Assembly: GCA_016125185.1 (NCBI GenBank)
Contig: WGMG01000002.1
Location: forward strand, 124,001-188,000
Length of the DNA: 64,000 nt
Reading direction: 5' to 3'
From: Armatimonadota bacterium
GTDB taxonomy: Bacteria; Armatimonadota; Fimbriimonadia; Fimbriimonadales; Fimbriimonadaceae
Position numbers and translations under genes: made by a program. The notes below the pieces were generated by a model. It worked only from the letters and a program-made list of their open reading frames with translations. It was not told the origin of the DNA and did not search any database. Below are positions 29,525 through 33,204 of the stretch, piece after piece (position 1 is the first letter of the stretch; each line of letters begins with the position of its first letter).

Positions 29525-30952
29525 TCATCCAAAGGACGGACAGGAACTTTTCGTCAACCCAACTCGCTCTGCCAAATCGCTCGTCAGCAGATTCTCGGGA
29601 TCGACTTCGGCCTTGATCGCAAAGAACCGATCTAGGTTCTCGCCCAAATATGCCGCCACATCCGACGGCCGCAACGTCGAATCCTTCGCAAAATAGAACC
29701 GCCCCCCGCAGGAAAGCGTCAGGTCATTCATTTTGTGGGCTAGTTCCCAAAGCCGCTCGCGATTGCGCTCTGTTACCTTGAAGTCCAGGGCCAGCGAATA
29801 GCCGTCCACCGCGTGGGAGAACAGAAACTTGTCTTCTCGGTGCCGCTTCAGCACTCCCAAATATGACTCCAGCTTGTACTCCTGCTGAAGTCGAACCTGT
29901 TCGGCGAAAACGCGCTGAGCAAAACCCTTCGGCACAAAAGTCTGATACTGGATGAACCCGCCCGGCTCGTATGCCTTACGCCAATCCGGCACGTAGTCGA
30001 GCAGGAATGAGAACGCCACCAGGCTCTGTTCGTGCGTCTTCTTGTTGCCCAGCTTGGTTCCCGCAACGTACTTCATCCAATTGAGGAGGTGCATCCCCGT
30101 TCGGTTGCAGAGCATCTTCAGGATCTTCCAAACCATCGCCTTCGGAAAGAACCCCATGATCAGCGGCGGCAGGTCTTGAGCGTCGGCTCGGCGACTCTTG
30201 GGATCATCGAATTTATCGTACCAAGCGGCGTGAAACTGCCCTCTTCCGGCGCCGTTACCTCGACCAAAGCAATCCACCCACGAGACCATGTAGTCCGCCT
30301 CGTGCTCGAACCGCTGAAACATTTCGAACTGCTCATCCCAGTTGTGCGCCGCCTCGGCGTAGACCTTCAGATTTCCGCTCGCAACGTGGTGCATCTGCAA
30401 TCGAACGCGTGTGATTACGCCTAACAGACCCGCCGATGAAACCACCTCAAAGAATCGCTCATCGCTGGGTGTCAAGGTTGCCAGCGTCCCGTTTGGATAC
30501 AAAACGTCCAGTTCAAGCACATGCTCGCCAATCGTTCCTTGGCAGAAGTTGTTTTTGCCGTGGACGTTCATCGCCAAAGCACCCGCCAGGGTCGGATACA
30601 TGGTTCCCGTCACCACGGGAGGCCACCAGCCGTCTTCCAGGCAGTAGCGCCATAAGCCCTCGATCGTTGTTCCTGCCTCACATTCGATGACGCCCGTCTC
30701 CTTATCCCAATGGAGGATTCGGTTCATCCGCGTGATGTCGATCACCAACTTTTCGGTGCCGACGTTGGCATCGCCGTAGCTTCGGCCCGACCCGCGCAGG
30801 GTCACTTGGCGGCCAGAAGTCCGCGCCAACGCAAACACATCGCGAACCTCGTCGACCGAGGTGGGTCGATACACAAAGGCGTCCGTATGCCCCGACTGCC
30901 CGAATCCGCTGATCCGGTCCAGGTGATCGAGGGTTAAGCCAGCGGAGCTCAT
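29525..30952 (-). CDS. dprE1: DprE1-like FAD-linked oxidase (decaprenylphosphoryl-ribose 2-oxidase family)
   Basis: A 475-aa flavoprotein of the VAO/ALO type. Visible features shared with DprE1 are RGSGRSYGD (FAD loop), GTMYPTLAGALAMNVHGKNN, VVSSAGLLGVITRVRLQM, GGFIQYQTFVPKGFA, and KVTERNRERLWELAHKM preceded by YSLALDF. DprE1 oxidises the ribose C2 of decaprenylphosphoryl-ribose. The gene is coupled by 4 nt to a DprE2-like SDR, itself coupled to a UbiA-type transferase, which is the mycobacterial DPA pathway order. Homology is by eye; the lipid substrate is inferred. Confidence 0.8.
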   Translation of the reverse strand: MSSAGLTLDHLDRISGFGQSGHTDAFVYRPTSVDEVRDVFALARTSGRQVTLRGSGRSYGDANVGTEKLVIDITRMNRILHWDKETGVIECEAGTTIEGLWRYCLEDGWWPPVVTGTMYPTLAGALAMNVHGKNNFCQGTIGEHVLELDVLYPNGTLATLTPSDERFFEVVSSAGLLGVITRVRLQMHHVASGNLKVYAEAAHNWDEQFEMFQRFEHEADYMVSWVDCFGRGNGAGRGQFHAAWYDKFDDPKSRRADAQDLPPLIMGFFPKAMVWKILKMLCNRTGMHLLNWMKYVAGTKLGNKKTHEQSLVAFSFLLDYVPDWRKAYEPGGFIQYQTFVPKGFAQRVFAEQVRLQQEYKLESYLGVLKRHREDKFLFSHAVDGYSLALDFKVTERNRERLWELAHKMNDLTLSCGGRFYFAKDSTLRPSDVAAYLGENLDRFFAIKAEVDPENLLTSDLAERVGLTKSSCPSFG

Positions 30953-31671
30953 ATCTTCAGCTTGCGAAAGATCGGGCTGGGGATGCGTTTGATGATGTAA
31001 AACGCGAGGCGGTGGAACAGCTTCAAATAGTGTTCGCCGTTCTTGTCAAACTTCGAAACGCAAATCTCGGCGGCGGTTCGCACCGGCATCTTGCTCATCG
31101 TCATATGCTTTGCCAAATCGGTCTCCACTGGCCCCGGCTTGATCGTACTCACGACAACGCCGTAGCGCGACAACCGGTTCCGCAGGGCTTCCAGATACGT
31201 GTGTAGGAACGCCTTGCTCGCGTTGTACACCGGCTGAAGCTGTCGCCCTCGGTCGCCAGCCACGCTCCCGATGCCGACCAAGTACCCGTGCTTCGTGTTC
31301 ATAAATCGTTCGGCGGCCTGGTTGCACCAAGCGATCGCTCCAACCATATTGACGTCGGCCATCGATTTGTCCTTCTCGAAATTGAATTCGGTGGGACTTA
31401 TTTCCGGCATCACGCCACTGCAGTACACGAAGAGGTCGAGCCCATTCAACTGCTTCGTCATGTCCAAGAAAAGCTCAGGTACTTCGCCCGTGTTCAAGAC
31501 ATCGTGTTCGAACGCCAAGACCTGATTGGGAAATTCGTTCGCCAGTTCGTCGAGCAACGCACGACGGCGCGCAACTGCGGCTACCTTCACTCCCTGCTGA
31601 GCGAGAATGCGGACGATCTCGCGCCCGATTCCGCTGGACGCGCCGATGACGATGGCAGTCTTATATTTCAT
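30949..31671 (-). CDS. dprE2: DprE2-like short-chain dehydrogenase
   Basis: A 240-aa SDR. The NAD(P) motif is IGASSGIGREIV, NCAG is replaced by YCSG, the catalytic Ser lies in GIGSVAGDRGRQ, and YNASKAFLHTYLEAL has the Tyr-Lys pair. In mycobacteria DprE2 reduces the 2-keto intermediate made by DprE1, completing C2 epimerisation. Overlaps of 4 nt on both sides tie it to the DprE1-like and UbiA-like genes. A different keto-reductase role is possible. Confidence 0.8.
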   Translation of the reverse strand: MKYKTAIVIGASSGIGREIVRILAQQGVKVAAVARRRALLDELANEFPNQVLAFEHDVLNTGEVPELFLDMTKQLNGLDLFVYCSGVMPEISPTEFNFEKDKSMADVNMVGAIAWCNQAAERFMNTKHGYLVGIGSVAGDRGRQLQPVYNASKAFLHTYLEALRNRLSRYGVVVSTIKPGPVETDLAKHMTMSKMPVRTAAEICVSKFDKNGEHYLKLFHRLAFYIIKRIPSPIFRKLKI

Positions 31672-32693
31672 CGATAGAGGAAAGGCAGGGGCACATTGGT
31701 AAGCCCGATCGCGGCGGCGGCGGCAAAACCGACGAAAGTGACGATAAGGTGGGGGTCGCGCAGAACCATCGACTCAGGCTCTCCGCTCTCACCGCTCCCA
31801 AAAACGATCACGATGTACCGCGCAATCCCGTAGATGACGAACGGTGTGGTCAGGATGATGCCTGGGTAGCTTCGCGCGGTCGGGCTCTCGATCGAGTAAA
31901 CGCTGTACGTGAGGGCCGCGCAGGTGGCCGAAAACATGACCAGCATATCCAACGACTGATGCGTGTATTCCGCCAGGCTTTTGCGCGACGTGTGGGCGTC
32001 GTCACCCATCAGAATGTATTCGTGTCGGCGTTTACCAAAGCCCAGCATCAGCGCCAGCGTCGCCGTACAAAGCAGAATCCAACCCGAAACGTGGGCCGAA
32101 ATTGCCAGCGCGCCGATCACGACGCGGATAACGAACCCCAGTGATATGCAGGCCACATCCGCGACCGATTTGTTGCGGAGCCAAAGGTTGTACATCACCT
32201 GGATCAGCAGGTAGGCGGCCAAGCCGTACACAACCTGGATATTCGAAAGAAAGCCGAGAACGACGGAGGCGATGAGCAGGACCACGGCCATCGTGAAAGC
32301 AACCAGCACCGGCACCCGTCCCGAGGGCAAAGGGCGATTCTTCTTGACCGGATGGTTGCGGTCCTTCTCGATATCGTAGATGTCGTTGGCGATGTAGGTC
32401 GTCGACGACGCACAGCACATCGCAGCAAACGCAAGCAGAACGGCTTTGATCGCGCCAGGAGTCTGCCAACCTTCGACATAGAAGATGTACGCGGCAAACA
32501 CGAAGACATTCTTCGTGTACTGCTTCACGCGGACAAGCTTGACTAGATCGGTTACCGACATCGATTGCCCCAGTGTTTTTACTGGGATACCGTATATGTT
32601 GGCTGATTCCGGTCGATTTTGAGGCATCGCGGTTCGATAGCCCGGCGTTGAGTTGACCGGATTCTCGGTCTTCAGTACAATTTCGTCGTCCAT
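31668..32693 (-). CDS. UbiA-family prenyltransferase, decaprenyl-phosphate phosphoribosyltransferase type
   Basis: A 341-aa protein with about eight membrane segments. The key motif is NDIYDIEKDRNHPVKKNRPL at about residues 103-122, the Asp-rich pocket of the DPPR synthase (Rv3806c/UbiA) branch, followed by PSG; an Arg/His-rich second site is GDDAHTSRKSLAEY. DPPR synthase transfers phosphoribose to decaprenyl phosphate. The start is uncertain: 32693, 32627 and 32561 (MSVTDLVKLVRVKQYTKN) are possible, and the last matches family N-termini best. It shares its CATG with the divergent gene at 32692. Confidence 0.8.
   Translation of the reverse strand: MDDEIVLKTENPVNSTPGYRTAMPQNRPESANIYGIPVKTLGQSMSVTDLVKLVRVKQYTKNVFVFAAYIFYVEGWQTPGAIKAVLLAFAAMCCASSTTYIANDIYDIEKDRNHPVKKNRPLPSGRVPVLVAFTMAVVLLIASVVLGFLSNIQVVYGLAAYLLIQVMYNLWLRNKSVADVACISLGFVIRVVIGALAISAHVSGWILLCTATLALMLGFGKRRHEYILMGDDAHTSRKSLAEYTHQSLDMLVMFSATCAALTYSVYSIESPTARSYPGIILTTPFVIYGIARYIVIVFGSGESGEPESMVLRDPHLIVTFVGFAAAAAIGLTNVPLPFLYR
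32676..32681 (+). promoter_or_regulatory. -10-like box before the 32692 gene
   Basis: GTACAAT ends 10 nt before the ATG at 32692, with no ribosome-binding site visible. The box lies inside the longest reading of the divergent ubiA-like gene. Confidence 0.4.
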
Positions 32694-33204
32694 GGAAAGC
32701 ATTGGTGACCTACTGAAAGAGTGGCAGACGTTCTATTTCACGTTGGCCGGTGCCACTGCGACTCTCATGGGTCTGCTGTTCGTCTCCCTCTCCCTCCATG
32801 CCAACCAAATCCACGACGAAGAGAATTCCCACTTTCTAAGGCTCGCCCGGCTCACATTCAGCAATTATCTGATGCTGTTGACCCTTTCGCTCCAGATGCT
32901 CGTGCCGATGCGGGTTCGGCCCCAGCTCATCATTCCTATGGCCGCCGTCGGCGTCATCGGCTTGTTCTGGACGATCACCCTTCGCAACCGAGGACTGAAG
33001 AAGTCGGACCCGACCACGCCCTTCCTTCACCGCTCCTATTACATGGCGTTCGCCAGCTACGCGGTCGTTTTGGCGCTTTCGCTGATCCGGTTTGAAATCG
33101 CAACACTGATGTACCTTCTCCTCACGCCCATCATGCTTCTGACCGTCACGTCGGTCCGCAACTCGTGGGGCCTCATGATGATGCTCCGTACGAAGTCGGA
33201 CTGA
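32692..33204 (+). CDS. Four-helix membrane protein, unknown
   Basis: A 170-aa protein with about four membrane helices: FTLAGATATLMGLLFVSLSL, TFSNYLMLLTLSLQMLVP, LIIPMAAVGVIGLFWTITL and YMAFASYAVVLALSLIRF, plus a final IATLMYLLLTPIMLLT segment. I do not recognise the family. Its ATG overlaps that of the divergent ubiA-like gene (CATG). The TPP riboswitch begins 28 nt after its stop. Confidence 0.65.
   Translation: MESIGDLLKEWQTFYFTLAGATATLMGLLFVSLSLHANQIHDEENSHFLRLARLTFSNYLMLLTLSLQMLVPMRVRPQLIIPMAAVGVIGLFWTITLRNRGLKKSDPTTPFLHRSYYMAFASYAVVLALSLIRFEIATLMYLLLTPIMLLTVTSVRNSWGLMMMLRTKSD

Follow-up and report, generated by a model that had tools for sequence, protein, structure and literature searches.

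We are fairly confident that a three-gene operon in a Fimbriimonas-like bacterium makes a lipid-linked pentofuranose donor, which would end as polyprenyl-phosphoryl-D-arabinofuranose and be flipped by a GtrA-type protein. The operon lies in a stretch of 64,000 nucleotides, called here the window, which corresponds to C2:124001-188000 of the genome G000 (4.52 Mb, 13 contigs). The arabinose-donor route is a tuberculosis drug target; with this operon it reaches several little-known phyla, whose enzymes form a deep clade of their own, and an uncharacterised envelope sugar is suggested there. The following genes were assigned to the operon:

31668-32702, minus strand: UbiA-family protein, predicted polyprenyl-phosphate 5-phosphoribosyltransferase (DPPRS/PPPRS type)
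30949-31671, minus strand: DprE2-like SDR, predicted 2-keto-sugar reductase
29525-30952, minus strand: DprE1-like, predicted FAD-dependent polyprenylphosphoryl-ribose 2'-oxidase of the type-1 clade

From the enzyme families, active-site residues, linkage, co-occurrence and gtrA context, all of which were read from the sequences, we infer the reactions, the lipid and the sugar as follows. The UbiA protein would place 5-phosphoribose from PRPP onto polyprenyl phosphate, probably undecaprenyl phosphate rather than the decaprenyl-type carrier of the initial annotation, whose proposed route is otherwise well supported. A phosphatase, for which the YqeG half of a YqeG::GtrA fusion is a candidate only, would take off the 5'-phosphate; DprE1 would turn C2' of the ribose into a ketone by oxidation, and reduction of this ketone with inversion by DprE2 would give polyprenyl-phosphoryl-D-arabinofuranose. 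A GtrA-type flippase would then bring the lipid-linked arabinose to the outer side of the membrane, and a GT-C enzyme would add arabinofuranose to an envelope glycan or glycoprotein.

The operon and its three enzymes

As had been described initially, the three genes are coupled by 4-nt overlaps: two overlaps of exactly 4 nt (ATGA) join the UbiA, SDR and FAD oxidase genes, and the motifs quoted at the time, including NDIYDIEKD of DPPRS, are present. Position 32693, first taken as the end of the feature, is an internal ATG inside the UbiA frame. Most homologues begin to align at about residue 46-54, which makes Met48 at 32561 the probable true start of UbiA. The nearest named locus, from an uncultured Fimbriimonas sp., has the same three genes with 77-80% protein identity, which bears out the earlier presumption that the DNA comes from Armatimonadota; the host genome appears to be Fimbriimonas-like, belonging to Fimbriimonas or close to it. 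The gene order of the trio is kept within the genus and the family.

The predicted role of the UbiA protein, moving phosphoribose from PRPP to polyprenyl phosphate, is well supported by sequence comparison. The protein matched NCBIfam DPPRS with an E-value of 1e-64 and the solved mycobacterial DPPRS of the Rv3806c type (PDB 8j8j) with an E-value of 4e-37. It passed the cut-off of one of the three NCBIfam DPPRS models (NF008978, 210 bits; cut-off 207) and scored under those of NF008977 (218.7 bits; cut-off 234) and NF008976 (174.5 bits; cut-off 474). When the Mg- and PRPP-binding residues of Rv3806c, as given in PMC10994848, were mapped onto the protein, eight of the nine were identical (K28, N73, D77, K87, R90, Q135, Y138 and K208), and the ninth, K143, was replaced by arginine.

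The oxidase scored 291 bits (E 2e-86) against NCBIfam DprE1, below the equivalog cut-off of 500, and its next NCBIfam family reached 60 bits, i.e. 230 bits less. The best PDB matches were DprE1, with an E-value of 8e-48 for the M. smegmatis enzyme (4aut). Identity to mycobacterial DprE1 is about 31%. The equivalents of Y60, H132, K134, Q334, Q336, K367 and K418, which we take to be the catalytic set of DprE1, are all identical in the oxidase; in place of N385 and Y314 it has Ser, and in place of C387 it has Ala. Cys387 of DprE1, the target of benzothiazinones, is dispensable for catalysis. At its site the oxidase has Ala388, and alanine was invariant in 16 of 16 Armatimonadota sequences. The examined members of the clade, being without the cysteine attacked by benzothiazinones, offer a natural reference for a cysteine-less DprE1.

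Among the three assignments, that of the SDR as DprE2 is the weakest. The protein scored 92 bits against NCBIfam DprE2, where the equivalog cut-off of 250 was not reached, and 153 bits against PRK07102. The catalytic Ser-Tyr-Lys of SDR proteins (S136-Y149-K153) is invariant among its orthologues. With a profile of 19 orthologues, M. tuberculosis DprE2 (21gq_C) ranked second among PDB sequences and was the only full-length match among the 60 PDB matches listed, the rest of which stop by about profile position 222. It seems that the trio works like the mycobacterial donor pathway, yet DprE1 and DprE2 miss the curated cut-offs. Because the scores lie far under these cut-offs and N385, Y314 and C387 are changed, the substrate details of the oxidase and the SDR may differ from those of DprE1 and DprE2.

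Two DprE1 clades and the distribution of the genes

A tree with actinobacterial homologues had been suggested as a check on the assignments. Our tree of 130 DprE1 sequences splits into two clades, both with full SH-aLRT support. The type-1 clade (95 rows) contains the window gene and sequences from Armatimonadota, Chloroflexota, Planctomycetota and Myxococcota, while the type-2 clade (35 rows) is made up of Actinobacteria, M. smegmatis DprE1, a cyanobacterial contig and a few Armatimonadota. The window gene is thus placed in a separate deep clade beside the one that holds the M. smegmatis enzyme; the tree covers DprE1 sequences only, so membership of the DprE1 family is judged from the scores. 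The type-1 clade appears to be an ancient branch of its own that spans several phyla. Given its type-1 position, the window gene was not acquired recently from Actinobacteria.

Fourteen genomes of the window's family (f1) have a DprE1 only 29-34% identical to that of the window, as type 2 is; five of these genes were placed in the tree, as type 2, and the other nine were typed by identity alone. Each f1 genome has one DprE1 match and never both types, split gene fragments aside. Since type 2 seems to replace type 1 in f1 and the two are mutually exclusive, the pattern suggests that they do equal work. In the open-access papers searched we did not find a description of the second deep clade, or of type 2 apparently taking its place inside a single family.

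The type-1 pair might also act on polyprenyl-phosphoryl-ribose and yield another sugar, e.g. xylofuranose, so that the envelope sugar would not be arabinose. The scores far under the DprE1 and DprE2 cut-offs and the changes at several active-site neighbours are consistent with such a product, as are the GalE-type epimerase genes that adjoin DPPRS in several relatives and the finding that other epimerases make other pentofuranoses from the same ribose intermediate (PMC11127046). However, the core catalytic residues are kept, and the replacement of type 1 by an actinobacterial-like type 2 within f1 suggests the same product, and we consider another sugar unlikely.

DprE1 was found in 137 and DPPRS in 267 of the 291 Armatimonadota genomes; 133 genomes had both, 4 had DprE1 alone, 134 had DPPRS alone and 20 had neither (Fisher p 0.001 for co-occurrence, kinship ignored). 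The completeness of three of the four genomes with DprE1 alone is 69-77%. DPPRS is a core gene of the phylum, and DprE1/E2 are an addition that is near-universal in f1. Because DPPRS is near-universal in the phylum, also in genomes without DprE1, part of its role needs no arabinose.

A scan of named genomes revealed a type-1-like DprE2-DprE1 pair in Chloroflexota, Planctomycetota, Myxococcota, Acidobacteriota and others, and DPPRS was found in 24 of the 25 genomes of other phyla tested. Among these 25, DPPRS was present in 22 of the 23 type-1 genomes, usually far from the pair, and in both type-2 genomes (L190 and L208). In 40 loci from Armatimonadota and 80 named ones, DprE1 was not surrounded by a glycan cluster; most of the neighbours examined were of housekeeping, regulatory or unknown function (tRNA synthetases, TruB, DHH, fumarase and, by eye, LipB and NusA), and a polysaccharide deacetylase and one GT4-like gene were also present.

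In most f1 loci with type 1 the order is UbiA-E2-E1, and in another Armatimonadota family, f13 (L045, L333-L335), it is E2-E1-UbiA; the trio was assembled in two different orders. Across 41 loci the three proteins show correlated pairwise distances (r 0.60-0.69, 0 of 999 permutations). An accidental arrangement, in which the FAD oxidase and the SDR act on an unrelated substrate and lie next to the UbiA gene by chance, would fit the position of the pair in most other phyla and several Armatimonadota families, where it stands among housekeeping genes away from DPPRS. It is nevertheless very improbable given the co-occurrence with DPPRS (133 of 137 and 22 of 23 genomes), the assembly of the operon in two orders and the exchange of type 1 for type 2. 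The original assignments of DPPRS, DprE1 and DprE2, and the route drawn from them, are well supported by the residues, the tree, the co-occurrence and the repeated formation of the operon.

A GalE-type epimerase was considered as a strict substitute for DprE and was ruled out, because f13 genomes with a DprE1 have such an epimerase next to DPPRS as well. We also noticed that in the Anaerolineales loci L245, L247, L249, L251, L255 and L258, DPPRS has as its neighbour a GHMP kinase resembling mevalonate kinase, and in two of them there is also an amino-acid-kinase-type gene, possibly isopentenyl phosphate kinase; for this naming, one GHMP kinase and one amino-acid-kinase-type gene were run against Pfam. 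These neighbours read as a link of DPPRS to isoprenoid synthesis.

Candidate flippase and phosphatase

Two steps of the route, that of the phosphatase and that of the flippase, are poorly settled, and gene context supplies candidates for both. In this genome GtrA occurs once, as part of a fusion with a YqeG-type HAD phosphatase:

G000:C2:375465-376550 (L209:718-1806), outside the window: YqeG::GtrA fusion, between mltG and aroE

The fusion scored 117 bits against TIGR01668 (cut-off 89) and 60 bits against GtrA (cut-off 26), and the YqeG half carries the HAD motifs DVDHT, SNT, K and GD. Among the listed matches of the phylum, full-length matches to the fusion occur in f1 only. There, the array mltG-[yqeG::gtrA]-aroE (mltG and aroE were named by eye from sequence) was seen in 30 loci, with a single ORF in 29 of them and one contig ending before aroE. 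In the sister family (f2) seven loci have mltG-yqeG-DPPRS-gtrA-aroE in this slot, and again one contig ends before aroE; in five of the seven, gtrA was detected only with a GtrA query from f3, another family of the phylum. In f3 itself, gtrA adjoins DPPRS in three loci without yqeG. Two reduced f1 genomes, G132 and G133, have neither DPPRS nor DprE1, and they keep yqeG with no adjacent gtrA.

A link between gtrA and DPPRS is thus well supported in three ways, namely by the f2 slot together with the f1 fusion, by the adjacency in f3 and by the joint absence in G132 and G133. The arrangement reads as if DPPRS had left the yqeG/gtrA slot and joined dprE2-dprE1 in f1. The link between yqeG and DPPRS is weaker and may be incidental, because mltG-yqeG survives without the pathway and no PgpA over the cut-off was found in f1, so that YqeG may be the PGP phosphatase of this family.

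The initial annotation had noted that the phosphatase step was not seen nearby; this is right for the neighbourhood of the operon, but elsewhere in the genome the YqeG half of the fusion is a candidate. A five-gene arabinose-donor pathway, in which YqeG also removes the 5'-phosphate, is fused to its own GtrA and feeds a conserved arabinose-containing envelope glycan, is conceivable, though we find it rather doubtful; the YqeG family is otherwise tied to phosphatidylglycerophosphate. For the phosphatase step only, we lean slightly towards YqeG being just a phosphatidylglycerophosphate phosphatase that stands beside DPPRS-gtrA by chance, with another phosphatase completing the pathway; the fusion would then have arisen once DPPRS left the array. 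This is favoured by the retention of mltG-yqeG in the reduced genomes without DPPRS, by the possible service of YqeG in lipid synthesis in f1, where PgpA over the cut-off is lacking, and by the DPPRS-gtrA pairs without yqeG in f3. Against it stand the fused ORF kept in 29 of the 30 loci examined, the HAD phosphatases that carry out this step in Citrobacter (PMC11127046), and a Leptolyngbya contig in which DprE1 and DPPRS lie next to a HAD phosphatase fused with a flippase-like domain. In the latter (L257:3047-4672) a HAD-IB phosphatase is joined to an LPG_synthase_TM flippase-like domain, which is an independent parallel to YqeG::GtrA.

Transferase, acceptor and known pathways

The absence of arabinosyltransferases near the operon, noted earlier, extends to the whole genome for two types: neither an AftB-type transferase nor GT87 was found in it, these two being the arabinosyltransferase types covered by the search. 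The genome also has four PMT_2-type GT-C genes, all of them away from the trio and with no evident glycan clusters around them. As for the traits of a three-component system, the flippase gene is linked to DPPRS (in f2 and f3) and a GT-C gene is not linked to the donor genes. Separately, a contig from a bin labelled Rickettsiales encodes a GT-C protein between DprE1 and DprE2 (L208:7140-8714); it is weakly AftB-like (NF041481, E 5e-11), far under the cut-off.

In f3 and a further Armatimonadota family, f4, DPPRS clusters with exosortase, DUF3485, Bac_transf and Wzz/AAA genes. The one exosortase of our genome adjoins a DUF3485 relative and genes reading, partly by eye, as RmlB/GalE and RmlA, and the window encodes, at 582-1289 on the plus strand, a protein whose sorting tail is of the PEP-CTERM type (TIGR02595 over the cut-off). 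On account of this context in relatives, the exosortase locus and the PEP-CTERM protein, our guess is that the acceptor might be an exosortase-linked exopolysaccharide. Among open-access papers we found none that links exosortase with DPPRS.

The mycobacterial decaprenylphosphoryl-arabinose pathway consists of Rv3806c, DprE1, DprE2, Rv3807c and Rv3789. Common to it and the pathway proposed here are three homologous enzymes, conserved catalytic residues, a separate flippase gene and the same proposed reactions. Unlike in mycobacteria, DprE1 belongs here to the other deep clade, the order is UbiA-E2-E1, the benzothiazinone cysteine is replaced by alanine, AftB-type and GT87 transferases, the two types searched for, were not found, and a HAD-type phosphatase candidate fused to a GtrA domain stands in place of Rv3807c.

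The occurrence of such a route outside Actinobacteria, as first claimed, is not new in itself, since Gram-negative glycans with Araf use DprE1/E2 homologues and a polyprenyl-phosphoribose synthase (PMC11127046). The logic of synthase, phosphatase, epimerase, flippase and GT-C resembles that of Citrobacter youngae ORF15/14/12 (PMC11127046). There the genes form a dedicated glycan cluster, the flippase is of the MATE type and the PRP phosphatase is a fused domain, whereas here the operon is conserved and stands alone, the candidate flippase of GtrA type lies elsewhere and no transferase is seen nearby. As cited in PMC11127046, D-arabinofuranose for pilin glycosylation in Pseudomonas aeruginosa is also made via DPPRS and DprE1/E2 homologues; by that description it is a similar pathway outside Actinobacteria, though pilin-specific. 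In open-access papers we found nothing on decaprenylphosphoryl sugars or this pathway in Armatimonadota, nor a description of phylum-wide DPPRS or of the yqeG-DPPRS-gtrA context.

The window also contains a run of glycan-degrading genes at 35950-60234, which includes a GH38 alpha-mannosidase, a LacI regulator, a BNR-repeat protein, GH31, DUF5695, a SASA esterase and an alpha-L-fucosidase.
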